From the NCBI GenBank assembly GCA_905234985.1, contig CAJOJQ010000019.1:1-64000 (forward strand): 64,000 nucleotides of DNA. The letters are read 5' to 3'. Below, in pieces: positions 41,901 through 64,000 of this stretch. Numbering within the stretch: position 1 is the first letter of the stretch; every line of letters begins with the position of its first letter. The stretch comes from an uncultured Christensenellaceae bacterium (GTDB lineage Bacteria > Bacillota > Clostridia > Christensenellales > Aristaeellaceae). The notes below the pieces were generated by a model that saw nothing but the letters and a program-made list of their open reading frames with translations, was not told the origin of the DNA and ran no database searches. A program made the translations under genes and the position numbers.

Positions 41901-42069
41901 TCAGCCCGCACTGGGACAGGATGATTTCGTACTGCCCAAAGTCGATGGGGTACAGGCGGGGTTCCCTAACAAAGCCGATCGCCAGGCAGAGGGCAGCGCA
42001 AACAAAGGCCGCCAGCGCGGGCATGCGGCTGGATGAAGCGCCAAACCATCCTTTCAGCCTTTTGATCAT
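38941..42069 (-). CDS. large GT-C-like membrane protein with internal duplication
   Basis: 1042 residues and about 24 predicted helices. The two halves look duplicated: half 1 has FGQYEIILSQCGLTW, FRSLYPEAAA and LVRLFTEPFGLSFSI; half 2 has GDYGRMMEQLDVTW, FNSLFGEGSI and LLRLLTEPLGLGFST. The same (F/Y)(N/R)SL(Y/F).E motif recurs in the 514-residue protein at 55014, so the three units are related. The fold resembles GT-C glycosyltransferases using lipid-linked sugars, with an early-loop acidic residue (D.G.Y), but no named family can be given. ATG overlaps the SGNH gene stop (ATGA). Last gene of the exopolysaccharide operon; its stop lies within the copy-2 repeat. Confidence 0.75.
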   Translation of the reverse strand: MIKRLKGWFGASSSRMPALAAFVCAALCLAIGFVREPRLYPIDFGQYEIILSQCGLTWTPEDVALGNLQYVRPLTAFSYTRFSWASLLSPGASGSTVYAVALVRLFTEPFGLSFSIDALSFVWALLLALAVGLITGALHERLPRAWMLPALILCLVYTDGNFCAIFRSLYPEAAAIVFSLLFMAAALRAFCLDETRRFKWLFPLAFLSILLLKSLSPLIVFLPLVLAVNGWLIYSCRKGLSRRIILLVLTAAVLFSGVGSAVQLVGSDVDYFSNASLYESAFNALLREADDPEAILWEWGLDSSYLPDVGKSFYEPQESYVHYPRDEQEAEKLFSRLSTEKILSAYLSRPGLLFKALCTRELWGGKGFENTRNSTLTPNEKGFSAARTEGGVLPFLWKVLPLNWAGFFLIQLLLTVFWAARAIRKRRMGAGLIALFSLCSTLFLPFALILDGYAQSQQYMLYQTFLTAALLTELLCMAVYGLPLAVQWFTRYMEEPYVVAASPLPVRSVDGPAPRPLQALNRWAEILSAHHFPFLLLTGLVCAAILTAVYLPANHPASVNNGDYGRMMEQLDVTWDSMTYFNTGSQAGRYAIEDYAYTSGFDFLKLTPLKPTYSLYWFAGLLRLLTEPLGLGFSTYLLAWLMGLIMLVCVLQIIRDLFPLLGKWIVPAAALLVLMLFNETYLTWFNSLFGEGSILLGVLLSVMCAVHLCVMPRKKSWKRPVWLLGLFLSLNILITSKSQMVMAAPGAVMLFLILCWYHRPYRYDLQAIQALVCLALCGVLAVSTVGVYQTDRTEDSVSQKHTMWQAYFYGIFMISDDPIGDMEALGVDTAMAPDIGKYVSFGDDIDYVYKPLSEEAQKGFYDHVSMLTIVKWYLTHPAKLWFMLDHAASESKSLYTGFRVYVGQDYTDLNHDEVNGWNLWPSWRSWLTPGSFLGYILYYGALVFLCVWYILQKNRPQWKRMLCAVPLFLIVTGALQFPLSVLGNGFADNQKQLFCFSLCHDLLLGGTLLLAGRCLFRLPAVLADGKRFPEKLQGIIRHKGRR

Positions 42070-44684
42070 TTCGTTTCTTCTTTCCAGGCCTGATGCAGGG
42101 CCAGCACCGTTTCATCGGTCAGGGCCTCGCTGACCGCCTCCAGCCGCCGGACGGAGATATCCGAGAAGCGGAAGGGCCGCCCGTACTGGTTCCGTTCGCA
42201 GCCGATATACAGATTGCCCAGGTAGGAAGCGATCTTGCAGTCCTTTTCCGCTTCCAGCCTGCCGTTCAGGTAAACGCGGTAATGGTTGTGTTCTTTCACG
42301 ATGGAAACCACCGCCTGATCCGCGGGATGGATTTGCACCTCCGCGTATTCCGTTCCGAGGACGAAGGAGAACACGGTATCGCTGGTCTGCCGCACCAGCA
42401 GGCCCCTGTACTTGCCGGGCGTTTCGTCGAAGCAGGAAATCACGCTGCCCCTGCGCACCGTCACCCGGTCCAGCAGGAAGGTGAGGGTCCAATCCTTTTC
42501 GGCGTTGTCGTACAGTTTCAGCCCCGTGTCCACATAGGCGTCCTTCTGATTGCCCACGAAGCTGGGGGAAAGGGTATACGTCACGTCCATGCCGGGATCC
42601 CGGGGCGCTTCGGCCAGGGGTTCGGGCCGCCAGGCCAAAATCTGTTCCTCCGCCATCAGCCCCCGGTATACGTCCAGGTTGTACACGGTGGCGCCGGACA
42701 CGCGGAAGATATTGCCCGAAGCGTCCGTCTGGGCGCCGATGAGGAAGGAGCCGTTATAGGCTGTACACGGGCTGGCGTTCTGATCCAGCACCTTTTCGCC
42801 GTTCAGATATACGGTGTAGGCGGAACGGTCCTTCACCACGGCTAAGCGGGAGGGAGCGTCCTTGGGCAGGGTGAGGTTCGCGCCAGTGCCCGCGCCGTAA
42901 ATCACGTTCAGGGTATCTTCCCCGATTTTCCGCACCAGCAGCCCGCGATAGGCCCCCGGTTCCTCGGAGAAGCAGGAGAAATACACCGTATCGCCCGCCT
43001 CGATTCGGGGTTCGATCTGGCTGAGCAGCGTAAAGGAGCCTTCGGGGTCGTCAAAGAGCCTGCAGCCGGTATCCACGTATTCCTGCCCGTCGCCCACAAA
43101 GCGGTTCTCCAGGGACAGAATCAGGTCGTCCTGGGTGACTTCCTTCATGTAGGCCGCCTTTTCCGCCAGGGGCAGCTGCTGCGGCTCCCAGGCCAGGGCG
43201 TCGGCTTCGCCCAGGGCGGAATCGTAAATCACCAAATCGCGGATCAGGGTCTTTCCGAAATGCATGCGCCGCCCCTCGGCGCTCACCTCGCAGCCCAAGA
43301 GCAGCGAGCCTTCGTAGGCGTTCAGCTCGGAGTCGATCAGCTTCACGTCCTCCACTACGTTTCCGTTCACGTAGATGGTGAAGGCCTTTCCTTTTTTCAC
43401 CACCACCAGGCGGATCACGTCCTCCGGGTCGGCCACGCGGATGGTCATGGTAGCGCCGATGGTGATTTCTAACTTTCCGTTCACCGCCCGGCAGACCCGG
43501 AAGCCGCCCATGCCCGGCACGTCGTTAAAGCAGGCCATGACCACGCGGGTGTTGTCACCGGTTTCGGGGAGGGTGAATTCGGAACACAGCGTCCAGGAAG
43601 CGAGGGGGTTTTCATAGAGCCGGTAACCCGTGTCGCTGTAATCCTGGATGCCGTCGCCCTGAAACTGTTCCGTGGCGGCGTAGGCGGGCGTGGACGCCAT
43701 GGCGCTGGTTTGATTCCAGATGTGGCCCGGATCCTGCCGCCGGTCAGGCAGGTCGTACTTGCTTTTCAGCAGTTCGGCAATGGCCCTGGCATATTTGGGC
43801 AGGCCGAATTTGTTGAAATGGCCGGGGTCAAGGAAATCCTGCAGGGGATCGATGTCGATTTCGGCGTAATTGTCGTTGAAATTGGTGAAATCAAAGCCGT
43901 ATTCCGCCACGATGGAGGCCACCCGGCGGAACTTCTGCTGTTCCGCGGCGGAAAGCTCATAGGGCGCGGCCACGATCTCCAGCTTGACGCCGTTCATCCG
44001 GCAGTATTCCAGCAGCATGCGGAAGTATTTTTCCTCTTTTTCGCCCAGTGCTTCTTCCCCTTGGGTGGCGTTCGGGTCCAGCACCGTGATAGGATACACC
44101 TTATCGGACGTTTCGGTGGAGTATATCTGTACTTCCTGATGGCTGTCCCAGGGAAAGTACTCAAAATCCTCCTGGGTCAGTTCCGTATACCGGTTATGGT
44201 ACGTGGAGAAGCCGAACAGCATGAACGCGCGGTTCTCTTCCGGCACGCTGGCCCAGATGTTTTCCACCTTTTCCTTGGACAGCCGCATGGCGATGGTGTT
44301 TTTCACCTGTACGGGATAAGAACCGTATTCCTGCTGGAAGGTGAGGCTGTAAGCGTCCAGCAGCACCACCTTGGGGGTCTGGTATTTCAGGGCTTCCAAC
44401 AAATAATAATAGGTGTTCCAGATGGGCTGGATGCTGCCCCAGAAGCGGTAGCCCGCGATGCCGTATTCGTCCCACAGGGTTTTGGTGCTGATGTTCATGC
44501 CCGCGTGGGAGGTGCCCAAAATCAGCACGTCCACGGTGTCCCTGGGCAGGGAATAATAATTGTGTACGGGCAGGGTGCCGTCCTCGTACTTGAATTCCAT
44601 TACGCACATGAGCAGCGCGCCGATCGCCAGGAAAACAAGCACGAACAGGGCGCCCTTCCCCGCTTTTTTCAGGATGTTTTTCAT
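42066..44684 (-). CDS. SGNH/AlgX-DltD-like O-acetylation protein with three LamG-like repeats
   Basis: 872 residues: an N-terminal membrane anchor (about 10-30), an extracellular SGNH-type domain to ~310, then three repeats of ~170 residues. The SGNH part has ILGTSHAGMNI with the likely nucleophile Ser and FLDPGHFNKFG with the Asp..His pair, as in AlgX/AlgJ and DltD partners of MBOAT proteins. Each repeat opens with (Y)(S/V)DTG.(R/K)L(Y/F) and contains (V/L)Y(V/L)NG..V, typical of concanavalin/LamG beta-sandwiches that bind glycans. It should transfer acetyl groups, passed out by the MBOAT protein encoded just upstream, onto the polymer while holding it. The repeats are unusual for such partners. 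Confidence 0.82.
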   Translation of the reverse strand: MKNILKKAGKGALFVLVFLAIGALLMCVMEFKYEDGTLPVHNYYSLPRDTVDVLILGTSHAGMNISTKTLWDEYGIAGYRFWGSIQPIWNTYYYLLEALKYQTPKVVLLDAYSLTFQQEYGSYPVQVKNTIAMRLSKEKVENIWASVPEENRAFMLFGFSTYHNRYTELTQEDFEYFPWDSHQEVQIYSTETSDKVYPITVLDPNATQGEEALGEKEEKYFRMLLEYCRMNGVKLEIVAAPYELSAAEQQKFRRVASIVAEYGFDFTNFNDNYAEIDIDPLQDFLDPGHFNKFGLPKYARAIAELLKSKYDLPDRRQDPGHIWNQTSAMASTPAYAATEQFQGDGIQDYSDTGYRLYENPLASWTLCSEFTLPETGDNTRVVMACFNDVPGMGGFRVCRAVNGKLEITIGATMTIRVADPEDVIRLVVVKKGKAFTIYVNGNVVEDVKLIDSELNAYEGSLLLGCEVSAEGRRMHFGKTLIRDLVIYDSALGEADALAWEPQQLPLAEKAAYMKEVTQDDLILSLENRFVGDGQEYVDTGCRLFDDPEGSFTLLSQIEPRIEAGDTVYFSCFSEEPGAYRGLLVRKIGEDTLNVIYGAGTGANLTLPKDAPSRLAVVKDRSAYTVYLNGEKVLDQNASPCTAYNGSFLIGAQTDASGNIFRVSGATVYNLDVYRGLMAEEQILAWRPEPLAEAPRDPGMDVTYTLSPSFVGNQKDAYVDTGLKLYDNAEKDWTLTFLLDRVTVRRGSVISCFDETPGKYRGLLVRQTSDTVFSFVLGTEYAEVQIHPADQAVVSIVKEHNHYRVYLNGRLEAEKDCKIASYLGNLYIGCERNQYGRPFRFSDISVRRLEAVSEALTDETVLALHQAWKEETK

Positions 44685-44714: not shown

Positions 44715-46223
44715 TCAGAACTGGAAATAGATGAAGCTGGCGGCGTCGAAGGCCGGGCCGTAAACGCCGAAGAGCAGGATCCAGAACAAAGCGCCGTAAA
44801 TCACCGCCCACCGCAGGGGCAGCGGCCAGGCCAGCAGCGAATCCCGGATGGATACGCCTCTTTCATGCAGGATATCCACGAAGAGCAGAATGAGAATGGA
44901 AAGCACCATCAGCCAGAAATCCGCCCGCTCCAGGCCTAAGGTGTACAGCGTGCCGTCCACCAGCAGCCAGGGATTCCATACGAAGGAGGATTTGATGATG
45001 TGGATGGCGGAGGAAAGATCCGTGGCCCGGAAAAACACCCAGGCGATATCCACCAGGATAAAGGTGAGCAGCATTTGGGCCAGCCGATGGCCGAAGGATT
45101 TCCGATTGACGCCGAGCTTATCCAGGGCCTTTTCCCGGACGGGCTTGAGCATATCGCCCACGATCTGCATGACGCCGTTCAGGCCGCCCCAGATCACGTA
45201 GGTCCACGCCGCGCCGTGCCACAGGCCGCTGACCAGGAACACGATCATGATGTTCCGGTACCGCTTCCATTTGGCGCAGCGGCTGCCGCCCAGGGGGAAA
45301 TAGATATAATCCCGGAACCAACTGGTAAGGGAAATGTGCCACCGCCGCCAGAAATCGGCCACGGAGGTGGCTAAGTAAGGCTCCTTGAAGTTCTGCATCA
45401 GATGGAAGCCCATCACCTGGGCCGAGCCGATGGCGATGGTGGTGTAGCCGTTGAAGTCGCAGTAAATCTGCACGGCGAACAGCACCGTGCCCAAAATGGG
45501 GATCACGCCCTCGTAGGAGCCGTAGTAGTTATAAATCTGATCCACCAGCATGGCCACCCGATCGGCCACAACCACCTTCATAAAGTAGCCCCAGGTCATA
45601 AGCATGAAACCCTTGGCCGCTTCCCGGGAATCAAAACGGTGCTTTTCCTGGAACTGCACCAGCAGGTTGCTGCTGCGCTCGATGGGGCCTGCCACCAATT
45701 GGGGGAAGAAGGACACGAACAGGGCGTAACGGAAGAAATTCTTTTCCGCCTTCGTTTTGCCCCGGTATACGTCGATCACGTAGCTTAAGGACTGGAAGGT
45801 GAAGAAGGAAATGCCCACCGGCAGGGCGATGTTCAGCTTGGGGATTTTGATTTGAACGCCCACCAGGGCAAAGAGGGAAACCGTGCTTTCCGTCAGGAAA
45901 TTGGCGTATTTGAACCAGGCCACCACGGAAAGCGTAAAGATGATGGTGACGGTGGTGTACAGGGTGGCCCGGCCTGTGCGGCGTTTTTCCGGCGGGACGC
46001 CTTCTTTTTCCTCCCGGCGGCAAATGTCGATGAACAGCGCGTCCAGGTATGTGACCAGGGTGCAGCCTAACATGAGCAGGATAAAGCGGGGGTCCCAGCA
46101 CATGTAAAAGTAATAGCTGCCCACCAGCAGGAGCGCGTTGCGCACCTTCTGCCATGGGATCAGGAAATACGCCATGGCGATGGCGGGAAAGAAAATCAGA
46201 TAGGACAGGGAGTTAAAAAGCAT
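44715..46223 (-). CDS. MBOAT family membrane O-acyltransferase (AlgI/DltB-like)
   Basis: 502 residues, about 11 helices. It should move an acyl (probably acetyl) group from a cytosolic donor across the membrane to an SGNH partner. Seen: YLIFFPAIAMAYFLIP, SFFTFQSLSYVIDVYRG, LVAGPIERSSNLLVQF, FWRRWHISLTSWFRDYIYFP and the catalytic His in VSGLWHGAAWTYVIWGGLNG. AAAGGAG precedes the ATG. It lies 30 bases upstream of the SGNH protein gene, the normal pair for exopolysaccharide O-acetylation. Confidence 0.93.
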   Translation of the reverse strand: MLFNSLSYLIFFPAIAMAYFLIPWQKVRNALLLVGSYYFYMCWDPRFILLMLGCTLVTYLDALFIDICRREEKEGVPPEKRRTGRATLYTTVTIIFTLSVVAWFKYANFLTESTVSLFALVGVQIKIPKLNIALPVGISFFTFQSLSYVIDVYRGKTKAEKNFFRYALFVSFFPQLVAGPIERSSNLLVQFQEKHRFDSREAAKGFMLMTWGYFMKVVVADRVAMLVDQIYNYYGSYEGVIPILGTVLFAVQIYCDFNGYTTIAIGSAQVMGFHLMQNFKEPYLATSVADFWRRWHISLTSWFRDYIYFPLGGSRCAKWKRYRNIMIVFLVSGLWHGAAWTYVIWGGLNGVMQIVGDMLKPVREKALDKLGVNRKSFGHRLAQMLLTFILVDIAWVFFRATDLSSAIHIIKSSFVWNPWLLVDGTLYTLGLERADFWLMVLSILILLFVDILHERGVSIRDSLLAWPLPLRWAVIYGALFWILLFGVYGPAFDAASFIYFQF

Positions 46224-46274
46224 GGTTTCTTCTCCTTTCGCCAGATGCGACTGGACGAAAAAGCGGCCTGCGTT

Positions 46275-48185
46275 TTATCGTTTTTTCTCTTTTTTTCCGT
46301 GGGCTTTCTTGGCGGGAGCGGGCGCTTCCTCCGCGGGGCCGTTTTGTTCCGACCCCGGGGCGGGCTGTTCCGGAACGGCGCTGGGAGCGGGCCGCGGGGG
46401 TTCGGCGGGCGCCTTCAGCGGCGCGGGGTCGCTCATGGCCACGCCTTCGCTGGCCACGATGCGGATATGCCCCGCCCGGATGGCCGCGCCCATATCAAAC
46501 TGGGCGTGGAGCGCTTCGGCGCGCAGGCGCGCCCGGTCCGCTTCCTCCTGCTGGAGCATAAGCACGCGGGAATCCCGGGCCGCTTTTTCCGCCGCCTCCC
46601 GCCGCTTTCTTTCCAGGCGGTCCATGACGGACTGGCGCACCAGGGCCATCACTTCCTTGACGGACATGCCGCTCATCATGCAGAGCAGGGCAAGAGCGTG
46701 GTAATGATAGCGGTTCTGGTTTTCCACAAACAGATGCAGCCCGGCGGTGCCGCAGAAGAGCAGCAGGCAGGCGTACATGGCGTCCGGACCCCGGCGCAGG
46801 CACAGGCAGCCGTACACCCCGGCGGCGAACAGCAGCACCAGATAATACAGGTCGCTCACGTCCATCATCCGGTACAGGAAACTTTCTCTTTCCGGCGTCA
46901 GGGCGCCCTGCTGATCCAAAAACAGGATGTTCCAGGACGCGCCGAAGTCGTCGTTGCCCCAAAGCACTTCAAATTTATGTACGAACAGGTCCAGCAGCGC
47001 CCGGGGGTCCACCTTCATCCGCTCCAGGGCTATGTCCCGGCACATGAGCTGGGCTTCCTGGGCCGAGCCTGTAGCTTCCAGGGCGGCGTAGAGGTAATTG
47101 GCGTCGTCCTCGTTCCAGCCGCCGTAGCTTTGCAGGTTCAGGCCCACCAGCAGGTTGTAGCCATAGGAGGCGCTGCCCGCCAACTGCCGGTTCACGGCGT
47201 AGCCCGTCGCCATGGTGAAAATGCCGGAAAGGCCAAAATAAACGGCGCATACCAGGGCGCAGCGCTTGACGCCCCGGTTCGTCAGCCGCAGGCCCAGGGG
47301 AATATCGTTCCGGGGCAGGGAGGGCAGCTCCTTCCTGGTGGGCAGCAGGCAAATGACCGCCGCGATCAGGAAAATCACCGCCATGGGCCGGATAAAGGAG
47401 CCGAAGGCCAGCACCGCCGCCATGGCCGTCAGTTCTCCGGCGCACAGCCAGGGATGCCGCTTCTGGCGTTCGGAATCCTTCATGGACAGGGCGAACAGCC
47501 ACGCGCCCAGCAGCAGCACCAGGGTAAACAGGGGTTCACTGGCCACGAAATTGCTGTACAGAATATTGGAGGGCAGGAAGGAAACGGCGGCCAGCGCCAC
47601 CAGGCCGCACAGCCTGCCGCCCAGCAGCCGGGCGATGCGCCAGACCACCAGGCACACGCCCGCCTCCAGCACTAAATTGAACATCAGCGCGGTATGCACG
47701 CTTTCGCCGAAAACGCCCAGCACCCAGGCCAGCACCCAGGGATAGCCGAACACGTGGGGGAACATGGACACGTAATCGCAATAGCCCACGCCGGCTTCCA
47801 CCAGGGTGCCCCGGTGCAGCAGCACCGCCATTTCATAATAGGTTTTATAGTCCGAAGCCGGGTCCATGGGCAGGGTACGGATCACCTGATAGCGGAGAAA
47901 CGTCCCCGAAAGCAGCAGCAGCGCGGCCAGCAGGTATTCCGCCGCAAGGGCCGGGCCGGGGTAACGGCCGAGCTTTTTGCTCATGTCCAGGCGCGCCCAC
48001 AGGGCGCACGCGCCCAGCAGAGCCAGGGTCAGCGCCAGCGCGCCTAAAATCCAGGCCCCTTTCAGCAGGTAAGGGTATTCCTGCCCCGCGCCTAAGCGGT
48101 TGAACACGCAGGCCATGGAAAACAGCATGCACAGCAGGAACACCAGCACCGCGAAATAGAAGAATGCGTTTTTCCGCAGCTTCAC
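46275..48185 (-). CDS. PMT/ArnT-like membrane glycosyltransferase
   Basis: 636 residues. About 12 helices to residue ~480; an early loop [20 protein letters not shown] carries acidic residues as in GT39/ArnT enzymes that take sugars from polyprenyl phosphate, and [18 protein letters not shown] and [19 protein letters not shown] fit that fold. The C-terminal ~150 residues are cytosolic: a charged coiled-coil ([20 protein letters not shown]) then a Pro/Ala-rich tail ending [11 protein letters not shown], an odd addition. GTG start overlaps the stop of the BcsB-like gene (GTGA). Its donor and acceptor cannot be told from sequence; adding a side sugar to the polymer is one possibility. Confidence 0.75.
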
Positions 48186-51100
48186 TTTTTCTCCTCCTCG
48201 CGCCGGTTGCGGCGGTACCGCACCAGGATCAGGATGACGGCCACCAGCATCAGGAACATGACGGAGGTGGAAACGAGGGTAAAGATCACGGCGTCCCGGT
48301 TCTTTTCCAGGCGATCCCGCAGGGTGGCTTTTTCAATGGCTTCTTCCTTGAGGAAGCGGAAGCTCTTGGTTTCCAGATCCCGGTCGATCAGGAAAGCGTC
48401 TCCGGACAAAGCCCAGGTGTTTTCCTGCTTTACGGCGTACCGGTCCAATTGGGACAGGGCCTGGGTGTCCGGCGCGCAGACGGCCAAAATGGCGCGGCCC
48501 TCCTGGTAGGGGGAACGGATATATTGCAGCACGCAGATTTCCGCCGCGTAGCGTTCGCTGAGCAGCAATTGGCTGCTGCTGGCAAAGCGCGCGCCGTCTT
48601 TGGCGAAGGGGAAGCTCAATTTATCGTTGATGGAGCGCAGGAAGGCGTTGTCCTGGTATGTGCCGATGGCGATCACGTGGGCGTTCTGGTTTTCCTTGGG
48701 GAAACGGGAAGCGTACCATACGCTCACCGTGCCGTAGGGCGATACGTCCGTGCCCATCAAGGCGGCGATGCGGCCGAAAACGGCGTATTCCTTTTCGTCC
48801 ATGTCGTCCGGCACCACCAGGGCCAAATTGTTGAACAGGCCTAAGCGCTGGAAGGGATAGGGCCGCAGGGACAGATCGTACACGCTGGCGTTTCCCGCGG
48901 GGAAGTACAGGGTGGATTCGCCGCTGACGTAGGCCCAGGGCACTTCGTCCGCCCGCTTGGTGCAGTACAGATCCTTTACCTCCAGGTCGAAGGCGATTTT
49001 CAGGGTGGAGGCGTGGGTGCCCACCACATCGGAGGGCATCATGAAGGAGAAGGTGTCCAGGGTGGCCTTGTCCCGATCCAGCTTTTTGGAGGCCACGGGG
49101 GTATCGCCCCAATAGACCGTCACCAGGGAACGGTCGAAATCCAGGTTGTCGCTGTAACGCATTTTCAGTTCGATCTTGCCGCCCTCGCCTAACACGAAGC
49201 CGCCGGAGAAGGGCAGATAAATGTTGCTGACCTGGTGGAAGGGACCCACGAAATAGATGCCGTTCTGGTTGGTGATGCCCTTGACGGTTTCCCCGTTTTC
49301 GATCAGGGCGTTTTGGGAACGGTAGGCCAGTACCGTGGTGGCCGCGCCGGAGGGAACGAAGGTCCAGTCGTATTTTTCCTGGGTCACGCGATCCGCGTCC
49401 AGCAGCATGAAGGCCGCTTCGGTCAGGTCCTCCGCCTTGGCGGCGGTGACCACCATCACATACCTGCCGTTCTGGCCGTACAGGTACACGAAGGCCCCTT
49501 CCCGGCTCAAATCCATATCGGGGGGCATGGCTTTGCGCGCTTCCTCCGGCAGGCGGTCGGCCTGGGCCACGATGAGGGCGTTGCCCCGGGCGGGCAGGGA
49601 GGCGGGCAGGGGCTTAAAGCCGATGCGGTCCTCCGCGCCGGTTTCATTGCCCAAATCCGCCCGCAGCAGGAACGCGGCGCGCAGTTCTTCCTCCAGGGCC
49701 TTGTCCGGCACGTACACGGTCAGGTCCGCCCCGGTATCGTCCATGCTGGAAATGAGGGGATAGGGATAAAAACTGATTTTGTTGCCGAAATCCACCAGGT
49801 CGTAGCCCGTTTCGATAAAGGAGGCTTCGGAAATGCTGATCCAGTTGGCGCCGGAAAAATCGTCTAAGCAGCCGTCGTCGTCGTAAAGCCGCACGTAGCC
49901 GGTGATGGTAAATTCGTTATAGCCCGCCACCAGCATGTCCACGGGAATGGACACGTAAACGATCTGGGACGCGCCGTTTTCATAATCCACGGAGCAGGAG
50001 AAAATGGGGTGATTGTTGATGAAAAAGGTCAGGGACGCGGGCACATCCTGGATCATGGGGCTGACGGTGTATTCGATCTGGGCCAGGGCGTAGCGAGTAT
50101 CCCAATAATCCGGGATCCTGAAAAAGTACCCGGACCGGCCGAAAATGCCCTGCAGCACGATGCTTTCGCTGTACTTGAAAATTTTCACGTGCTGGGTTTC
50201 CGGCGTTTCAGGACGCACGCGAAGCGGCTCGCCCGCCAGCTCGGGATCGCTGGCGAACACATAGTCGATCAGCGATACTTCCTGGGGGGCTTCCGGGGTC
50301 GGAGACGGAGTAGGAGTCGGAGTAGGCGTCGGGGTAGGCGTCGGGGTAGGCGTCGGGGTAGGCGTCGGGGTAGGCGTCAGAGTAGGCGTCGGTGTAGGAG
50401 TTGGAGTCGGAGATGGGGTCACAGACAGAGATGAAGTCGAACACGGAAGCAGGGTCGGAGACGGAGTAGGCGTCGGCGTAGAAGTTGGAGTTGGTGTAGG
50501 AGTCGGCGTGTATGTCGACCTCGGCGTAGGCGTAGGCGTAGGCGTAGGCGTAGGTGTAGGCGTAGGTGTAGGCGTAGGTGTAGGCGTAGGTGTGGGTGTA
50601 GGCGTAGGTGTAGGTGTGGGCGTAGGCGTGGGAGTGGGTGTGGGCGTAGGCGTGGGTGTGGGCGTGGGCGTAGGCGTGGGAGTGGGCGTGGGCGTAGGTG
50701 TGGGCGTGGGTGTGGGCGTGGGCGTAGGCGTGGGTGTAGGCGTAGGAATCAACGTCGGCGCAGACGTCGGCGCGGATTTGTACAGGATGTAGTCTCCGTA
50801 CTGGCTGCAGTACTCTTTTTCTCCATCCGACAGAAAGGCCATCACCGCATATTCGCCGTCAGAAATCCCGGTCATATCGACTGTATCGCTTTTCAGCGTC
50901 CAGCCCTGAACCTGCTCCATTGAAAAGCCAACGGGAACTTCGTTTTCGGCAGGCAGGTATTCCTTCAAATCAAGGGCGCATACGCGATCGGCCATGCCGT
51001 TCTTCCCTTTTTTCATCAGGTATGCTTCCGCCTTGATTCCTTGCGGGGCCACGATCCTGAGGTCACACGCCAAAGCGTAGCCGTCTTCCTGAACCTCTGC

Positions 51101-51292
51101 CGCTATATGGATATACGGGGTGGGGGCTGGCGTAGGAGCGGGCGTTGGGGTCGGTGTTGGCGCAGGGGTTGGGGTCAGGTTTGCGGTATGGCGCACGGGC
51201 AAAACCACCGCTAAGCCTCCAGCCATGCAGACGGGACAGAGCAGCGCCAGGAGCAGCACAGCCATCGTGCAAATCAGGAATCCTCGCTTCAT
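48182..51292 (-). CDS. BcsB-like exopolysaccharide synthase subunit with long Thr-Pro linker
   Basis: 1036 residues from ATG 51292 (AAGGTGATTG upstream). Signal peptide (1-25), a short TP spacer (about 40-59), a ~115-residue beta domain, then a TPTP-rich linker of ~160 residues (about 175-335), a BcsB-like body ([79 protein letters not shown]) and one C-terminal helix ([20 protein letters not shown]) with a basic tail. BcsB guides the polymer from the synthase through the membrane surface; in this Gram-positive setting the linker may span the wall. It follows the GT2 synthase by 25 bases. Confidence 0.85.
50288..50768 (-). repeat. hexanucleotide repeat coding the Thr-Pro linker
   Basis: Near-perfect runs of GTAGGC/GTGGGC units on the + strand (coding Thr-Pro pairs on the - strand), with two interruptions around 50420-50520. 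All units are in frame, so copy-number change would lengthen or shorten the linker without frameshift. Confidence 0.85.
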
Positions 51293-51317: not shown

Positions 51318-52586
51318 TTATTGTCCTTCCACGTATCGGACGGTTTTATCCCATTTGACCTCGCGCTTGAACAGCGCGTCCATGATGGAATCCCAGGCGG
51401 CCTTGACCACCACCAGCACCCAGAGCTTGGCGTAGGAGAACAGCATGAGCGCCACCAGGCCAAGGGATTCCAGGGTAAATTCGTTTCTTTCCAGGGAGAG
51501 CGTGAGCATCACGTTGGCGATGAACACTAAAATGGCCATGCCCCACAGGGCGGAGGAAAACCCGCCTAACTTTACCTGGATGGTGCCCAGGATGCCGCCT
51601 AAGAAGATAAAGTCGGAGGCGATCAGGGAGGTGAGCATCACGCTGTACACCAGGGCGTAGTACAGGGTGTCCAGGCGCATGGGTCCCGCCTTGCGGTCAA
51701 AGGTATATTTGAAGTTCTTGAGCATCACGTAAATATTCCCTTTGGCCCAGCGCACCCGCTGCTTGAACCAGATGGGCAGCAGATGGGGTTCCTGTTCCCA
51801 TGTGACGGCCTGGGGCAGCAGCTTGATGTAATAGCCCATGCGGTAGATGCGGAAGCTGATTTCCGTGTCCTCGCTGAGGGCCTTCACGTCCCAGCCGCCC
51901 ACCTGCTCGATGATGCTGCGGCGGATCACGTAATTGGTGCCCGGGATGGTGCAGAGCTTGAAGAAAAAGTACCGGCCCGCCTGGTTCATGCACTGATGGG
52001 ACAGGGTTTCGATGTTCACGAACCGGGACAGGATGGAGGCGTTGCGGTTTCGGGTGCGGAATTTGCCGATCACCGCGCCCAATTTATCATCCACCAGCAG
52101 GTTTTCCACCAGCAGGCGCAGGGCCTTGGGTTCCGGGGTGTTGTCGGCGTCGTAAATGGCGATCACCGTGCCTTTGGCCACGGAAAAGCCGATGTTCAGG
52201 GCGTTGGATTTGCCGGTGCCGCCCACCACCTTGTCGGTGCTGATGCACATGAGGCGGCTTTCGGGATGGGCCGCCGCCAGCTCCGACAAAATTTCTTCCG
52301 TGTTGTCGGAGGAATTGTCGTTGACCACGATGATTTCATACTTGTCCTTGGGGTAATCGAAATTCAGCAGCGCCTGCACCGTCCGCTTAAGCACCAGGGC
52401 TTCGTTGTGGGCGGGCACCAGCACGGAAACCATGGGATACTTGCCCCCTGGGGGAGGGATGCTGCCGTCCGTTTTGTTGCACCGGTAGATATAGATGTAC
52501 CCGCCGATGCTCAGCGCCACGTTGAGCATCATCATGGCCCAAATGGCCGCGATGGCGTAAATGGATACGATATCAGCTACTGACAT
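51318..52586 (-). CDS. processive family 2 glycosyltransferase (BcsA/PssC-like)
   Basis: 422 residues; helix 1 at about 12-32, cytosolic GT-A domain, then about four helices. Synthase motifs: [23 protein letters not shown] (first Asp), [10 protein letters not shown] (D.D), [13 protein letters not shown] (catalytic-base Asp) and [10 protein letters not shown] (the Q..RW motif of processive synthases). It should polymerise a nucleotide-activated sugar and extrude the chain. There is no PilZ domain, unlike BcsA, so c-di-GMP control must act through a partner, probably the degenerate GGDEF protein two genes upstream. GGGAGGAGATC precedes the ATG. Confidence 0.9.
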
Positions 52587-54153
52587 GTTGATCTCCTCCC
52601 GTGCTTTGGGAGCCGCGTTTCAAGAATCTTCTGTGCATCTGCCGGCGGGACTGGGCGCCTAAGAACAGGAAAATCACCAGCACCACGATGCTGATCCCGA
52701 TCAGGAACTGGTTTTGGTTCTTCAGGTTGGCCACGAACCGGTAATACTCGTTGCGCTTGTAATCGAAGGGTTCGCCCTCGGGCGTGGGGGAATACACGTT
52801 GAAGCGCTGCGCGCCGTCCACCAGCAGGGTGTTCTGATCCCAGGTGAGGGAATGGCCCTCGTCGGTGTACACGGCCTGCTCCATGCCCCACAGGCTTTGC
52901 ATGGGAAAGGGCGCGTCCTTCACCGCGTCGATCACGCTGAAAAGCTGCGCGTCCTCCGTCATGCTCATGTCCAGGTACACGGCGGTGGCGCACCGGGCCG
53001 CGTGGCTGACGCCGGTTTCGTCCAGCTTCAGGGCGGGCACGATCTGCTGGATGCCCGTGGGCAGATAATCCTTCATGCCGTATTCCTTGGCCGCGTGGAC
53101 GGAAAAAGCGTCCAGCTCGGAAAGGAACAGGGTTTTGTACCGGCGAAGGAGGGGCAGCAAATCTTCCCGGAACAGCCATTCCGAGGGGATTTCCAGCGCC
53201 AGGGGGTACACGTTCTGGCTGCAATAGTTCACGGTGGCCGCCGTCAGCTGCCGGGAAAGCGCCTCCGCGTCCAAACTGTTCTGCGTGTTGGGCGCGTGCA
53301 GGATCACCGCGCCGCCGTTGGCCTGCGCGTAGCGCAGCACCTCGCAGAACTGGGTCATGGCGGGATAATCGGCGTGATCGTAAATGGGCATGACGGAAAT
53401 CACGAAATGCATCCGGTTTTCCACCATGTATTCCACCAGCGTTTGCAGCCGGTAGGGATCATAAAAGGGATACACGGCGTCCAGCACCACGTGCTGGGTG
53501 TAGGTGGGCATGCGGACGTCGTAGGGCCACAGCCATTGGGCGATTTCCTGCACCAGCAGCTCCCTGGAAAAGGAATCAGTGTAATCCTGCAGCGCCAAAT
53601 AATGGGCGTTTCCGCTGCCGCTGGCTAAAGGCAGCTGCCCGCCGGAGGCGGCCAGCACGCCGCTCTGATAGGAAGGTTCGTCAAACGCCCCCGCGTTCAG
53701 CACGGATACGGAATGGCGGAAGCTTACTTCGTCGTCAAAGGCGTATTCCGCCACGCCCATGAAGCTGCCGGAAAATTCCTCCCGGGCGGTCAGGCCGAAG
53801 GCCTCCAGGCCCCGGGCCTGGCCCAGCGCCAGCAGCATGCCTTCATAGCCGGTCAGAACGGAAGCGTCCATCCGGTCGGACACGGCGGTATCGCACCAGA
53901 TCACCCGTTCATATTGGCCGATCACCGCCCCCGCGTCCTGCGCCTCCACAAAATCCGCCGTGTACCTGAGGGAAAACAGCGCCTGGGCGATGGCGGAAAG
54001 GTTATCCTCTCCCGCCTTTCGATCCGCTTCCTCCGCATAGACCACCAGCACGTCGCCGGGCACGGGAAGCTCCGTTTCCTCCGCCCCGGCGGGGATGAGC
54101 GGCGCGGCCAGCAGCAGGGCCAGCAGCAGGGCGGCAAGCCGGTTACACCTCAT
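52573..54153 (-). CDS. exported DUF2334 (deacetylase-like) protein
   Basis: 526 residues from ATG 54153 (AAGGAA upstream): signal peptide RLAALLLALLLAAPLIPAGA, a long extracellular part and a C-terminal helix (about 480-500) with a basic tail. FVISVMPIYDHADYPAMTQF and GGAVILHAPNTQNSLDAEAL match DUF2334, a divergent branch of the NodB-like deacetylase fold; the usual H..H metal motif is only partly evident (LHAPN). Related proteins occur in BcsB-containing polysaccharide loci. It may de-N-acetylate the polymer or only bind it. It overlaps both neighbours in the operon. Confidence 0.75.
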   Translation of the reverse strand: MRCNRLAALLLALLLAAPLIPAGAEETELPVPGDVLVVYAEEADRKAGEDNLSAIAQALFSLRYTADFVEAQDAGAVIGQYERVIWCDTAVSDRMDASVLTGYEGMLLALGQARGLEAFGLTAREEFSGSFMGVAEYAFDDEVSFRHSVSVLNAGAFDEPSYQSGVLAASGGQLPLASGSGNAHYLALQDYTDSFSRELLVQEIAQWLWPYDVRMPTYTQHVVLDAVYPFYDPYRLQTLVEYMVENRMHFVISVMPIYDHADYPAMTQFCEVLRYAQANGGAVILHAPNTQNSLDAEALSRQLTAATVNYCSQNVYPLALEIPSEWLFREDLLPLLRRYKTLFLSELDAFSVHAAKEYGMKDYLPTGIQQIVPALKLDETGVSHAARCATAVYLDMSMTEDAQLFSVIDAVKDAPFPMQSLWGMEQAVYTDEGHSLTWDQNTLLVDGAQRFNVYSPTPEGEPFDYKRNEYYRFVANLKNQNQFLIGISIVVLVIFLFLGAQSRRQMHRRFLKRGSQSTGGDQHVSS

Positions 54154-55009
54154 AGGCAAATTCCTTTTCCACCTCGCTGATGTACTTCATGGCGTCCTTG
54201 CCGAGCGCTGCGTCGTACTGCTTAAACACCACGCTCACCTCCACGGTGAGCTGCTGGCCGGTCAGCTCCGGCACCATGTTTTCCTTCTGCACGGCGGTGA
54301 GGATACGGCTCTTGACGATGGGCGCGCCGTTTTCCAGGCTGAAATAGATGATGCCGAAGGAACCCATTTCGTCCAGGGTGAACACCCTGTCCTCCAGGCG
54401 CAGGGTATTCTGGATCACGGTGGCTAAGATGTGCCTTAGGTCATTGAACTGGGCGCGGGTAAGCACCTTTTTGATTTCCTCGGCGTACCTCAGGCGCACC
54501 ATCATCAGGCCCATGCTGGTGCCGTTGCGTTCGCTTAAGGCCATGTACCTTTTCAGGCTGCTCACCATGCTGCGCAGGTTTTCCAGGCCGGTGACGGGAT
54601 CCATCACCGTCAGTTCGTCCAAGCGCTTGTTCAGCACGCCGTTCATGCCCTCGATGGAGGAGAACAGCGAAATGAACATGGTCATGCCGCCCAGGGCCGC
54701 CGCCAGCAGCGCGGGCCAAAGGTAAGCCGTCCACTCGATGGGGGTAAAGTAAGCCAAGCGGACGTACAGCTTGTACACGGTGAACACCAGCACGGTCAGC
54801 GCCGTGATCACCGTGCCCGCCACCTGCGCTCTCAGCCCCGTCAGCAGGGCGGAAAGCAACATGGCAAGCATCAGCGCCGTATGCTGATACATCAGCTCTT
54901 TGTCCGTCAGGCCCGTGATTAGGGCCGCGCCGAGCATGCTGAGCATGAAAAGCAGGATGCCCAAATCCTGGATCAGGATCAATCGGCTGGCAGCTTTGTT
55001 TTTTTCCAC
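54143..55009 (-). CDS. membrane protein with degenerate GGDEF domain keeping an RxxD I-site (PelD/PssE-like)
   Basis: 288 residues from GTG 55009 (GGAGG upstream). About four helices fill residues 10-125; the cytosolic part begins DELTVMDPVTGLENLRSM, the usual opening of a GGDEF domain. Where GGDEF should stand the sequence reads DEMGSF, so diguanylate cyclase activity is not expected. Exactly five residues before it is RLED (about residues 203-206), matching the RxxD inhibitory site that binds c-di-GMP. The pattern equals that of PelD and of Listeria PssE, c-di-GMP receptors that switch on polymer synthesis. Placed three genes before the PilZ-less synthase, it is the likely regulator. Confidence 0.8.
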   Translation of the reverse strand: MEKNKAASRLILIQDLGILLFMLSMLGAALITGLTDKELMYQHTALMLAMLLSALLTGLRAQVAGTVITALTVLVFTVYKLYVRLAYFTPIEWTAYLWPALLAAALGGMTMFISLFSSIEGMNGVLNKRLDELTVMDPVTGLENLRSMVSSLKRYMALSERNGTSMGLMMVRLRYAEEIKKVLTRAQFNDLRHILATVIQNTLRLEDRVFTLDEMGSFGIIYFSLENGAPIVKSRILTAVQKENMVPELTGQQLTVEVSVVFKQYDAALGKDAMKYISEVEKEFAYEV

Positions 55010-55013: not shown

Positions 55014-56558
55014 TTATTCCTCCGCGCTGAAAATGTGCAGGCGATGCAGAATCTCCGCGACGAACAGCAGCAGCATGCCGTCGATGCAGACCCCGCACAG
55101 CATTTGGTACCTCTCCATTTCCGCCGTGCCGCTTAAGGCGATGATGGCTGTCAGGTGCGAAAGGCCCGTAAACAGCAGCAGCAGAAAGGTATCCAGCATG
55201 ATTTGCCTTTCCCGGAAGGTGAAGTTCACTTTGTGGGGGTTCAGCCCCCGGCGCTTGCGGAACAGCATCCAGTAAACGATGGTCAGGATCAGCAGGAAGC
55301 CCATGGTCTGGGGCAGGGAATTGGCCTTGAAATTGCTGTAATTGGTCAATTGCCCGTTGACGGCGCGTTCCGGCTGCCCCGTATCGCTTTCAAAGTTGCC
55401 CACGAAGCTGCGCATGGAATGGAAGGCCGCCCGAATGCCTAACTCCAGCAGACCGAAGTAAGCCAAAGGATGGGTGAGATAATGCACAAGGATGGCGCCC
55501 ACGGAATACTTGGGCAGGAAATCCCGCTGGATATCCGGATTGCCCGACAGGGCATAGGGGAAATTGCCGTAGCTGGACATATCGGTGAGCGTTTCAAACC
55601 GGGGATCAATACCGAAATCCTCCAGGGTCTTCGCCGGATCCTCCGCCCGCAGGAGTACGCCGTTGGTCATGGCGTGCATCTTGGAAGCGTCCGAAAACCG
55701 ATCCGTTCCCGCCGTGGCGCCCACCACGGACACGATCAGGATCACCGCCGCGCTGACCGCCGCGATCAGGGAAATCTGCACCGTGCGGTCCTCCATCATG
55801 ATCTGGCGGGCGAAGAAAACCGTCAGCACCAGCCCCACCGCCGCGCAGTGGGATTCAGAAAGCGTAAGCACGCACCCAGCCGCCAGCAGCCCCACCAGTC
55901 CCGTTTGGGTCCAGCCCGTTTCCTTGTGCTGGAGGGCCAGGGAAAAGCCTAACATGTAGACCAGGCAGATTTGCCACATGGCTTCGGGGTAGAGGCTGTT
56001 AAAATAGGAAACGATGGCCGCGTCCCCCAAGATCAGCGCGCCGATGATCACCAGGAAGGTGGCTTCCGCCGCCACCTTCACACGGGAGGCGACGCCCCGC
56101 ATGGTCAGGTACACCGCGGGCAGATACAGGATGGCGTACACCAGGGCCAGGAAACGGATATCGAACAGGTTATCGTGGGTAAACTGATCGTCCAGCCACA
56201 TGGCGAAGCGGATGATCAGCCGGTGCGCGGAGACGCCCTGGGGCAGGTAGGTGGAATGCAGGTACACGCGGATAAAGTAGGCCCCCGTAGGATACGTGAG
56301 GTCCTGTCCCCGGTAGCCCAGGCCCGTGCCTAACAGGATATCGTTCAGGGAGCCGTCATCCGCCACCCCCGAAAAGGGCGGGATGAACAGGGTGAACAGC
56401 ATCATCACCAGCACCAGGGCCGCGCCCGTGAGCGCCGCCAGGTTGGGAGAATAAATCTTGCTCATGCGGCGGTTGTATTCGTGGAAACCGTGCCGCACCC
56501 CAGTGATGATTTTGACCAGCCGGGAACGAATGGTCTTTTGTTCCGAATTGTTGCTCAT
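55014..56558 (-). CDS. GT-C-like membrane protein of the exopolysaccharide operon
   Basis: 514 residues and about 12 helices. ADDGSLNDILLGTGLGY in the first outer loop and VSYFNSLYPEAMWQIC near residue 190 match the corresponding positions of the two halves of the 1042-residue protein at the other end of the operon, so it is the single-unit paralogue. GT-C glycosyltransferases carry an acidic motif in that first loop; enzymatic role is inferred. Start at 56558 has a weak ribosome site. It follows a 270-base hairpin-rich stretch, so its expression may be tuned there. Confidence 0.75.
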   Translation of the reverse strand: MSNNSEQKTIRSRLVKIITGVRHGFHEYNRRMSKIYSPNLAALTGAALVLVMMLFTLFIPPFSGVADDGSLNDILLGTGLGYRGQDLTYPTGAYFIRVYLHSTYLPQGVSAHRLIIRFAMWLDDQFTHDNLFDIRFLALVYAILYLPAVYLTMRGVASRVKVAAEATFLVIIGALILGDAAIVSYFNSLYPEAMWQICLVYMLGFSLALQHKETGWTQTGLVGLLAAGCVLTLSESHCAAVGLVLTVFFARQIMMEDRTVQISLIAAVSAAVILIVSVVGATAGTDRFSDASKMHAMTNGVLLRAEDPAKTLEDFGIDPRFETLTDMSSYGNFPYALSGNPDIQRDFLPKYSVGAILVHYLTHPLAYFGLLELGIRAAFHSMRSFVGNFESDTGQPERAVNGQLTNYSNFKANSLPQTMGFLLILTIVYWMLFRKRRGLNPHKVNFTFRERQIMLDTFLLLLFTGLSHLTAIIALSGTAEMERYQMLCGVCIDGMLLLFVAEILHRLHIFSAEE

Positions 56559-56832: not shown

Positions 56833-58518
56833 TCACATCTGAAATTCGTTTCCGCCGCTGGCCAGGGCGTTTACCAGCAGGGGAATCAATTGATCGAAGG
56901 CGTGGGCCGCGGCTCCCTTCTGGGCGTACGCGCCAAAGCGCGCGTCCTTCGCGTCCAGCACGTACATCCTGTCCATGCGGCGCAGGGCTTTTTCAAAGGC
57001 GGCCCCGTCGTCCATTTCCCTGGCGATCAGCGCGGCCAGCCCCCAAACGGCGGTGGAGTGGTATTCAAAGCCCTTCACGGCTGTGCCGTCCACGTGATAC
57101 CGGGCGGCAAGCGTTCCCGCTTCGATGCGCTCCCGCAGCCAGGCCCAGGCGTCCTCCGGTAAAGCGTCCGCGCGGCTCAGGTTCCACAGGGTATACAGCG
57201 CTTCCGCCGTGTTCAGGTCGTTCTGGCTGTATGCGGCGGCTTCGTAATCGTAACCGGCGTAATACAGGGGGAAGGCGTCGGAGATCCGGCCCCCCGCCAG
57301 CACTTCTTCCGCCTTTGCCAGCACCGGGGCAAAGGCTTCGTCCTCCCCAGCCAGCGCCCGCAGGCAGTTAAGATCCAGATAGCACAGGGAAATGGTGCGG
57401 GCCTGCCCGTCGCCCTCCAGCTCCGCCCAATCCGTAAGGCCGCCCTGAGCATTGACGCAGCGGGCAAGCAGGGCCTTTTCCATTTCCTCCGCGAGCGGGG
57501 CGTAGGGTTCGGCACCCCATTTTTCCGCCGCCCCGCGCAGGGCTTGGATGATGCGCAGATCGTCCAGGGAGGCGTTCACCGCCCCCGTTTTTTCTTCGCC
57601 CGCATACCAGACGGCGAGGCCGTTTTTCAGCATGTCCGTCCGGAGGAAGGCCAGGGTTTGATCGAACAGCGCCCGATCCTCCCGGATCAGGGCGTACCAC
57701 AGCATCAAGCCCTGGCTTTCGCTGAGTACGTCTGTGCCGGTGGGGGAGTCCCCCTCGGCCGCCGTGCAGGTATACACGCCGCCCCGGCCATTGGACAGGC
57801 TGTTCAGAATAAAGGATAATCCCGCCCTGTCCCGGCCCCGGAAAGCCCGATCCAGCAGGCCCTCGCACTGCCCGGCGGTGAGGACGCCGTTGGCGTATGC
57901 CCGCACGACGCCGTCCTTGTCCAGCACCACGGAGGAGGGGATTTCCCGAATCCCCCAGGCGGTATAAACCGCTTCGTCGGGATCGTACAGCACCGGGGCG
58001 GTCACGCCGTATTCCGTGATTTTCTTTTGGGCCGCTTCCACGCTTTCCTTGGCCCGGTTCAGCCGGTCCACCAGCAGCAGGCGCGCGCCGTAAGCCTCGG
58101 CCAGGGCTTCCATTTCCCGGATCACCTCGAACTGACGGTTGCAGTCCGGGCACCAGCTGGCCCAGAACACCAGCCATACGCCGCTTTCCTCCCGACCGAT
58201 CCAATCCCGCAGGGCAACGGGACTTCCCTGCTCGTTAGTTAATACGGCTTCGGGAGGGGGAGTGGCAATTGTCAAATGCTGGGGAAGCCAGTCCTCCGGC
58301 GCGGCCAGGGCCTGATCCTGCCGGGCCGTGGGGGAGGGCGTCTCGGCGACGGGCGCGTCCGTGCCGCCGCCCAGCAGGCGCGAGGCAAACACGATCATCC
58401 CCACGGCCAGCAGCGCCAGCAGCGCAATGCAGCCGTACAGGATGCAGGAGACGCGGTCGCGCTTTTTGTAGCGGGCTGCCGCTTCGTCCTTTTTGAAAAA
58501 TCCGTTTCCTGTCGCCAT
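56833..58518 (-). CDS. membrane-anchored thioredoxin (TlpA-like) - GH8 glycosidase fusion
   Basis: 561 residues. Helix at 24-48; a TlpA/thioredoxin domain (about 85-220) with VFWASWCPDCNRQF (CPDC at 123-126); then a family 8 glycosidase-like (alpha/alpha)6 domain: SESQGLMLWYALIREDRALF with the acid Glu, and NASLDDLRIIQALRGAAEKW, the Asp-Asp form seen in PssZ-type GH8 proteins. GH8 enzymes trim polymers in cellulose (BcsZ) and Listeria pss loci. Joining it to a thiol-disulfide domain is unusual. The ATG at 58518 is chosen although GGAGG is about 15 bases upstream. First gene of the exopolysaccharide operon. Confidence 0.82.
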   Translation of the reverse strand: MATGNGFFKKDEAAARYKKRDRVSCILYGCIALLALLAVGMIVFASRLLGGGTDAPVAETPSPTARQDQALAAPEDWLPQHLTIATPPPEAVLTNEQGSPVALRDWIGREESGVWLVFWASWCPDCNRQFEVIREMEALAEAYGARLLLVDRLNRAKESVEAAQKKITEYGVTAPVLYDPDEAVYTAWGIREIPSSVVLDKDGVVRAYANGVLTAGQCEGLLDRAFRGRDRAGLSFILNSLSNGRGGVYTCTAAEGDSPTGTDVLSESQGLMLWYALIREDRALFDQTLAFLRTDMLKNGLAVWYAGEEKTGAVNASLDDLRIIQALRGAAEKWGAEPYAPLAEEMEKALLARCVNAQGGLTDWAELEGDGQARTISLCYLDLNCLRALAGEDEAFAPVLAKAEEVLAGGRISDAFPLYYAGYDYEAAAYSQNDLNTAEALYTLWNLSRADALPEDAWAWLRERIEAGTLAARYHVDGTAVKGFEYHSTAVWGLAALIAREMDDGAAFEKALRRMDRMYVLDAKDARFGAYAQKGAAAHAFDQLIPLLVNALASGGNEFQM

Positions 58519-58643
58519 GGCTTGTGGAAAAATCCTCCATATGTTTTGATGATGTGCTGAAACGGGGGACACAATACAAAAGTAAAAAATTTCCAGGAAA
58601 ATGGAGAAAACTGTCGTCTTCACCATATAATATTATATACAAA

Positions 58644-61872: not shown

Positions 61873-64000
61873 TCAGCACCCTGCTGCCTTGCGACGGTTT
61901 TCCTGCATTTTTCGCGCCGTCTTGATCATGTCCGAAACCGTCATTTTTTTATCATCCAAACGAGTAATATAGATGGTTGAACCCTCATAACGATATGCCA
62001 TCCAACCATAATTGTCACGCTTGCTGCCCGAATCCCGCTGATCTCTGAAATGCTTGTCGTTCTTGGATTTATAAGAACGGTCTGTTAAATTAAAGAAAGT
62101 TAAGCCGGAGTATACGGTGCCGTCGCTTGCGATTACATCGCCACCGTTCGTCTTCTTGCAGAATTCTTCTGCAATATTGTCATGATCCCTGTGTCCGGCA
62201 TTGCAGCCAAGCAAAATCAAAGTACCAACATCCTTATCTTCCAGGTTCCGTACATCATATGCGCTGAATTGATTGTTTGAATTATCGCCATAGCCGAGTA
62301 CGGAGTTGTTCGCATGCGTGTTGATAACCACCGCGTCTATATCCACTTGCTGTCCATTTTCTGTGCCCATGGCATTCCAGGCATTGGATAAATCCGCGTC
62401 ATTCTTTATCGGCACCAAATGCACCTGATCTTCGTCCAGTCCATATTGTCTTGCTAATTGACGCCGATCATTCACCGCCTCATTTTTCCATTCGGGCAGG
62501 TAGAAAATATAGCAGTCAGTACCTTCCAGGTCAACCCATAGTATGGGATTATTGAGACAGTATTTATACAGATCCACGCCGCCCGGGAACATGTGTTTCA
62601 GATATGCGTCTTTGTCGCGTGAAATGAATTGACCGCTCAGCGGGTCATAATCTCGCGTTTGCGCATACCAGGTGCCAGAAGCATGATGCCGGTATAACCC
62701 TGTATATCCGAGAGCCGAATCTGCCGCCGGTGATAAGGGTTCTCCATACGGCGTATAATCTATCCTGCCTGTGCAACGGCCGTTGCTGTCAAACAGCGAG
62801 CGGATGCTGCCCTGTCTGTCACAGCCAAACCAATCAATGCCCGTTTCGCGGACGCTGGCAATGGCTTTCTTTCCCCACACGTAGCTTGTGGCTGCATGGT
62901 TTTCCGTTTCCATCAGCAAATTATTGACCGGGCTATTCAAGTCCAGAACAAAATGCTTTTCCCGCTTTTCTCCGGCAGAAGGTTCGTCTGTCTGTTTCAC
63001 AATCATCCCTATTCCGTTATTCAGGTACGTGCAGCAACCCGCTTCACTGTTTTTCACGCTTTCTAAGCGATTCTGTGCATTAAATCGCCGTTCAATCTTT
63101 TTGCCATCCGACCAGCTCTCCAAAATGCGATTGCCGCGACGGTCATACTGATAGGTAACAATGCTTTCCCCACATGTCGCTTTTACGAGCTGATGCAAGG
63201 CGTTGTAAGTGTAGTGGGTAGTGCTGTTATTCACGCTCTCCGAAACGCGGTTGCCAAATTGATCATATTCGTATGCGTATATTATCCCTTCCGGAAGCAT
63301 CACGACCTGTTTCAGCCGATTCATGCTATCGTATGCATAATTTCTCTGTCGCCGTTCTTCTTTATTCCTCTGGTAAATAGTCTGTTCTTCCCTGATTACA
63401 TTGCCGATTTCGTCATATGTATATTCTGTGACTTCCTTATTCCCTTCCCCGTCTATATGCGTCTGTCGTATAAGCTGACCCGAAGGAGTATATTCTTCAT
63501 AATCTGCCAGCCCATTGGACATACGACGGGAAAGCTTTGTTCCATGCTCCTCTGTTTCATAGAAAATATCTATCGGCGTCGGTCCTCCAATGCCGTTAAT
63601 ACGGCTGCGTCCGCCAAAGCTGTTATACTGATAGCGCAGTTCAAATCCATTTGGATAAATCAGGTTGGATAGTCTGCCATTGTTCCAGCGGTATGCAACC
63701 TGATTCGCATTTGCGTCAGTAACCAGTTCCGGTAATCCGGACGCATTATACCGGATGGATGTTTCACCGGTCCAGTCTTTCATGCTTACTGGCTTGTTGT
63801 AGCTGTCATATGCAAACTCCGCTGCTCTGCCATCACTATAGGCGATCTTCCGTACATTGCTTTCCACATCGTAGCTGTAAGTGGTCATATATTGATCTGC
63901 ATCCGCATGTGAAATTAACTGTCCAAGAGAATTATACGTGAATTTTTCAGCCAGGCCAAGCGCATCCACGCGTTGAATAACGCGTCCCTCCAGGTCGCGC
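61873..64000 (-). CDS. RHS/YD-repeat polymorphic toxin, 3' part, with caspase-like C-terminal domain
   Basis: The frame stays open to the right edge (DLEGRVIQRVDALGLAEKFT), so the gene starts outside the window; about 709 residues are visible. Many YD repeats (YDSYNKPVSMKDWTG, YDRRGNRILESW) lead to the RHS core end marker DYTPYGEPLSPAADSALGYT, then YAQTRDYDPLSGQFISRDKD, after which a unique domain of ~230 residues follows. This contains VVINTHANNS and TLILLGCNAGH, a His and a Cys in the pattern of caspase-like (clan CD) peptidases, and GDVIASDGTVYSG. RHS proteins encapsulate and deliver such variable toxin tips; the small gene after it may give immunity. Confidence 0.85.
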   Translation of the reverse strand, partial: RDLEGRVIQRVDALGLAEKFTYNSLGQLISHADADQYMTTYSYDVESNVRKIAYSDGRAAEFAYDSYNKPVSMKDWTGETSIRYNASGLPELVTDANANQVAYRWNNGRLSNLIYPNGFELRYQYNSFGGRSRINGIGGPTPIDIFYETEEHGTKLSRRMSNGLADYEEYTPSGQLIRQTHIDGEGNKEVTEYTYDEIGNVIREEQTIYQRNKEERRQRNYAYDSMNRLKQVVMLPEGIIYAYEYDQFGNRVSESVNNSTTHYTYNALHQLVKATCGESIVTYQYDRRGNRILESWSDGKKIERRFNAQNRLESVKNSEAGCCTYLNNGIGMIVKQTDEPSAGEKREKHFVLDLNSPVNNLLMETENHAATSYVWGKKAIASVRETGIDWFGCDRQGSIRSLFDSNGRCTGRIDYTPYGEPLSPAADSALGYTGLYRHHASGTWYAQTRDYDPLSGQFISRDKDAYLKHMFPGGVDLYKYCLNNPILWVDLEGTDCYIFYLPEWKNEAVNDRRQLARQYGLDEDQVHLVPIKNDADLSNAWNAMGTENGQQVDIDAVVINTHANNSVLGYGDNSNNQFSAYDVRNLEDKDVGTLILLGCNAGHRDHDNIAEEFCKKTNGGDVIASDGTVYSGLTFFNLTDRSYKSKNDKHFRDQRDSGSKRDNYGWMAYRYEGSTIYITRLDDKKMTVSDMIKTARKMQENRRKAAGC

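Follow-up and report, generated by a model that had tools for sequence, protein, structure and literature searches.

Gene content of the operon in the window

The window, that is, the whole stretch of 64,000 nucleotides analyzed here, carries on its minus strand a tight operon whose first cluster gene (56833..58626) was assigned from domain matches to an N-terminal thioredoxin/AhpC-TSA domain fused to a BcsZ/YdaJ-like GH8 domain. It is followed by genes for a WsfD-like hexose transferase, a membrane protein (55014..56558; NF051875, 306 bits against a cut-off of 80), and for a degenerate GGDEF membrane protein of the YdaK/PssE type (54143..55009), recognized from the open reading frame (ORF), Pfam, an AlphaFold2 model, and structure comparison. 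Pfam and the sequence itself revealed a YdaL-like DUF2334 protein with a signal peptide next (52573..54153), and domain matches a YdaM-like, PgaC/BcsA-like GT2 processive synthase (51318..52586). The start of the DUF2334 gene overlaps the end of the degenerate GGDEF gene by 11 bases, and the GT2 gene overlaps the DUF2334 gene by 14 bases. Further along lie genes for a BcsB-like, YdaN-like subunit with a long Pro-Thr linker (48182..51292; PF03170, 158 bits), a PMT_2/GT-C-like membrane glycosyltransferase (46275..48185, by domain match), an MBOAT O-acyltransferase (44715..46223, by domain matches), and an AlgJ/DHHW-like protein with LamG domains (42066..44684; Laminin_G_3), a probable partner of the MBOAT protein whose AlgJ-like reading was drawn from its sequence and position.

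A promoter-like site (58672-58644) was found upstream of the GH8 gene and is preceded by a terminator-like hairpin, both of them consensus matches only. With regard to regulation by a c-di-GMP riboswitch, no Rfam match was detected in the window, and a search of the genome with RF01051 returned zero matches, as it did in the control genomes. An RHS/YD-repeat protein (61873-63969, minus strand) is encoded upstream of the cluster.

Several components of the operon vary among relatives. Thioredoxin-GH8 homologues of similar length (541-569 aa) occur at L070, L073, L076, L118, L127, and L134, and the GH8-like proteins of other loci are about 360-400 aa long, which suggests a lineage-specific fusion. 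The BcsB-like protein contains very long Pro-Thr repeat tracts at about residues 183-332 of 1036, while its near-identical relative in genome G025 (L075) has a short tract only and totals 790 aa, so the length of this tract varies greatly between close species. The three last genes of the operon (42066-48185), for the PMT_2, MBOAT, and AlgJ-like/LamG proteins, are missing from most homologous operons read and probably constitute a decoration and O-acetylation module; together with the WsfD-like neighbor, they suggest a decorated, O-acetylated polymer.

Sequence and predicted structure of the degenerate GGDEF protein

The ORF at 54143-55009 begins with GTG and encodes 288 aa, including ...TLRLEDRVFTLDEMGSFGIIYF..., and its product shares just ∼20 to 30% identity with most homologues from other genera. 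Residues 135-281 match the Pfam GGDEF family PF00990 with 31.8 bits (cut-off, 23.8). The original prediction, made from this DNA alone, held that the GGDEF site had degenerated to DEMGSF and that RLED stood exactly five residues ahead of it, and translation and alignment bore out both statements. The RLED motif (residues 204-207; 54389..54400, minus strand) corresponds to the primary I-site motif RxxD, with R204 and D207 invariant, and is separated by the five residues RVFTL from DEMGSF (residues 213-218; 54356..54373, minus strand), in which F218 aligns with the F of GGDEF, making the loop one residue longer than GG[DE]EF. Two further arginines deserve mention. R235 (54305..54307, minus strand) stands at the R of an AERIR-type segment, a position that we take to be that of PleD R390 and that is occupied by Lys in Bacillus YdaK and in some other lineages. 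R161 (54527..54529, minus strand) aligns with WspR R198, the second I-site arginine (PMC2270323).

The AlphaFold2 model (pLDDT 82.3) predicted four transmembrane helices at about residues 2-34, 37-58, 62-87, and 93-133, as anticipated for a membrane protein, the last of which runs directly into a GGDEF-fold domain at about residues 134-288. Structure prediction was among the checks proposed with the original prediction, and comparison with solved structures confirmed the presence of this fold in the model: it matched 3ign, a c-di-GMP complex (Z 20.9; rmsd 2.4 over 154 residues), and c-di-GMP-bound PleD 9g86 (Z 20.5; rmsd 2.0), and Foldseek agreed on the GGDEF fold. PelD structures were absent among the fold matches listed, which does not speak for a different fold.

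Retention of the I-site and decay of the catalytic site

Only T140, R161, R204, D207, G228, and R235 were invariant in 17 diverse homologues, and in a larger alignment of 97 sequences, some of which are duplicates, exactly four remained so, namely, R161, R204, D207, and R235. In a profile alignment with solved structures, R204 and D207 fell on the RxxD of 6d9m, 3ign, WspR, and DosC, and R161 fell on WspR R198, so that three of the four invariant residues align with WspR R242, D245, and R198. These WspR residues form its c-di-GMP site (R242xxD245 plus R198), R198 being supplied by a neighboring GGDEF domain (PMC2270323). Judged from the alignments, the four invariant positions correspond to the lining of the c-di-GMP I-site in WspR and PleD. 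Canonical GGDEF domains, too, often have the arginines equivalent to R161 and R235, which makes the quartet specific only in part. The spacing of RLED is more than chance would give, since RxxD-x5-GGDEF was present in just 4 of the 26 canonical domains that were read in the window's own genome, compared with R204 and D207 in all 97 homologues.

The catalytic site shows the opposite trend. RxxD was kept in 20 of 21 family representatives (<45% identity), whose catalytic residues are lost, whereas the residues that bind metal and guanine and those of GGDEF itself were (nearly) invariant in 37 canonical domains, whose RxxD columns held R in 17 and D in 15. In terms of these alignments, the two sets are mirror images of each other. 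In the window protein, R172, E177, K180, K181, and V288 stand where the canonical domains have (nearly) invariant D, K, N, D, and K. The metal-binding, guanine-binding, and GGDEF residues being gone, the protein would not be expected to synthesize c-di-GMP, and an active diguanylate cyclase was ruled out on the same grounds. A weak cyclase with an unusual active site would account for the GGDEF fold and the PF00990 membership, but DEMGSF in place of GGDEF and the replacements at the catalytic columns make it scarcely credible. Some degenerate GGDEF domains bind other nucleotides, and GTP or another cyclic dinucleotide might accordingly be bound here, either at the I-site or where the active site used to be; we regard this as very unlikely, though less so than residual catalysis, given that the metal-binding Asp, the guanine-binding residues, GGDEF, and the final Lys have all been replaced and that the genome is rich in enzymes of c-di-GMP metabolism. 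The alignment and the modeled fold instead indicate that a complete I-site has been retained.

Linkage of the receptor family to the synthase

To describe the genomic context of the family, about 8 to 20 kb was read around BcsB in 16 other BcsB-positive Clostridia genomes, BcsB having been found in 17 of 392 genomes of the class, the window's own included. A GGDEF-like gene of 279-291 aa occurred together with DUF2334, GT2, and BcsB in 15 of these 16 genomes, often accompanied by WsfD and GH8. In the exception, L074 in genome G346, the BcsB match is split and divergent and GT2 was not found nearby; for these reasons, this locus does not count as a counter-example from within the same system. 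Scanning with the GT2 alignment extended the survey to 80 named loci in Clostridium, Paenibacillus, Cohnella, Acetobacterium, Ruminiclostridium, and others, of which 79 carried the GGDEF-like gene; at the one that differs (L151), the contig ends just after GT2. Two gene orders were observed, one shared by the window and Bacillus ydaJKLMN, in which the GGDEF-like gene precedes DUF2334, and one resembling Listeria pssA-E, in which it follows BcsB.

A natural control was provided by L181 (genome G811), the sole family member found without RxxD, in which P and N replace R and D. The 19 kb read around it contained no module gene, and a search for the cognate GT2 gave a best score of 42 bits in G811 versus 360 to 695 bits in each of the 17 other genomes with a family member that were tested. 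In this one case, taken from a genome that is 92% complete, the I-site appears to have decayed where the cognate synthase is absent. This YdaK-type protein of G811 without RxxD, read at L193 (8399-9181), is possibly a decaying or repurposed receptor.

A family profile built from 17 sequences of Clostridia and the window retrieved Bacillus-type proteins of 283 aa (E values of 1e-33 to 1e-38) with RETD at residues 202-205 and SDERI five residues on. From this residue numbering and motif, these proteins are probably YdaK of the Bacillus subtilis group, for which R202, D205, and SDERI have been published (PMC5422440). In YdaK, R202A and D205A abolish exopolysaccharide production (PMC5422440, PMC7064775), the four transmembrane helices are required, and the protein co-localizes with YdaM/YdaN (PMC5422440). 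Hydrogen-deuterium exchange placed c-di-GMP at the YdaK I-site, and the R202A variant kept its fold while losing binding (PMC7064775).

These observations bear on a further explanation, that the protein serves the synthase as a scaffold subunit and that its RxxD makes a ligand-free structural salt bridge or protein contact. Near-absolute gene linkage with the synthase (79 of 80 loci) would follow from such a role, as would the membrane-helix requirement and co-localization of YdaK (PMC5422440). However, the sole invariant residues are the c-di-GMP-binding ones of WspR plus R235, ordinary GGDEF domains often lack RxxD, and the behavior of YdaK R202A (PMC7064775) separates folding from ligand binding. 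We therefore consider a pure scaffold unlikely, albeit the least improbable of the alternatives to a c-di-GMP receptor.

c-di-GMP signaling and proposed function

The window's genome (3.57 Mb, 92.7% complete) contained 47 GGDEF and 20 EAL matches and, at that completeness, no PilZ match; PilZ was seen in 1 of 28 genomes of the same genus. Taken together, these counts describe a genome rich in c-di-GMP signaling in which no receptor of the PilZ type was detected. Pfam likewise detected no PilZ domain on the GT2 synthase (51318-52586), as the original prediction had stated.

The product of 54143-55009 is very probably a c-di-GMP receptor of the YdaK/PssE type that switches the adjacent synthase. 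That role as the switch of the operon, proposed beforehand, is now supported by the predicted fold, by retention of the I-site against catalytic decay, by operon linkage, by the lack of PilZ matches in both the synthase and the genome, and by homology to YdaK, whose dependence on its I-site has been established experimentally (PMC5422440, PMC7064775). By analogy with homologues, rising c-di-GMP would bind as an intercalated dimer to R204, D207, and R235, and R161 from a neighboring GGDEF domain would complete the site. The bound GGDEF domain might then change conformation or pair, and the four membrane helices would relay the signal and license the PilZ-less GT2-BcsB synthase, which would make and extrude the polymer. 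The bridging of two receptor domains by R161 is predicted because this invariant arginine is one that WspR provides in trans and because there is no GAF domain to offer a second arginine in cis; the residues named here allow a direct test of whether c-di-GMP makes this bridge.

Thus, a lineage of Clostridia whose genome shows no PilZ acquires a credible c-di-GMP output. The four invariant ligand residues, the loss of catalysis, and the loss of RxxD without the synthase constitute strong evolutionary evidence, a pattern that favors I-site receptors as the usual switch of BcsB-type synthases across Bacillota. More tentatively, a separate degenerate GGDEF subunit, instead of PilZ, could be the standard means by which c-di-GMP switches BcsB-type synthases in Gram-positive bacteria, with the ligand cross-linking receptors around the synthase, and such a subunit could be a main output in PilZ-free, cyclase-rich genomes; we offer this wider generalization as a speculative possibility.

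Comparison with known systems

The layout of the protein had been described beforehand as PelD/PssE-like, and the PssE part of this description held, in that four transmembrane helices lead directly into the GGDEF domain as in PssE and YdaK, while the PelD part did not. Pseudomonas PelD has a GAF domain ahead of its GGDEF domain, whereas the fourth helix of the window protein enters the GGDEF domain directly and its operon has no Pel-type genes. PelD membership was ruled out by the lack of a GAF domain (no Pfam match and no room, as helix 93-133 leads to GGDEF at residue 134), and a pel cluster was ruled out by the WsfD-like, DUF2334, GT2, and BcsB neighbors. The comparison with PelD fits function, not architecture: PelD, too, sits in the membrane and turns on a polysaccharide synthase through a degenerate GGDEF domain that serves as an I-site receptor (PMC4125290, discussion).

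The system also resembles BcsA-PilZ cellulose synthase in its GT2, BcsB, and GH8 components and in activation by c-di-GMP, which is predicted here, but the receptor in the window is a separate membrane protein rather than a PilZ domain on the synthase. Membership in the PilZ-regulated BcsA type was excluded, as the synthase lacks PilZ.

PssE of Listeria monocytogenes has the degenerate motif DKDDA, the arrangement RxxD-x5-DKDDA, and a GGDEF domain at residues 107-285; this domain binds c-di-GMP with a Kd of 0.79 μM and about two molecules per protein, and PssE is encoded with a GT2 (PssC) and a BcsB orthologue (PssD) (PMC4125290). As judged from this published description, the window protein shares the RxxD spacing, the layout, and the operon with GT2 and BcsB. 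PssE differs in being encoded by the last gene of pssA-E, an order that Paenibacillus and Acetobacterium show and the window does not, and the Bacilli loci that were read contained no DKDDA motif.

YdaK falls in the same length class and likewise combines four transmembrane helices with a degenerate GGDEF domain and RxxD five residues before the lost motif, and the operons share the core GH8-GGDEF-DUF2334-GT2-BcsB. The Bacillus protein has Lys at the R235 position and an SDERI loop, where the window protein has R235 and DEMGSF, and WsfD-like, PMT_2, MBOAT, and AlgJ-like genes and the thioredoxin-GH8 fusion are features of the window operon beyond those of ydaJKLMN. Assignment to the YdaK/PssE type is consistent with homology to YdaK over both the transmembrane and GGDEF regions, four transmembrane helices followed by a GGDEF fold, lost catalytic residues, the RxxD spacing, and a PilZ-less GT2 encoded with BcsB and DUF2334. 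This receptor family is already known from Gram-positive bacteria, so the window protein adds a member to it and the idea itself is not new; the present analysis contributes strong evidence from evolution and an extended operon.
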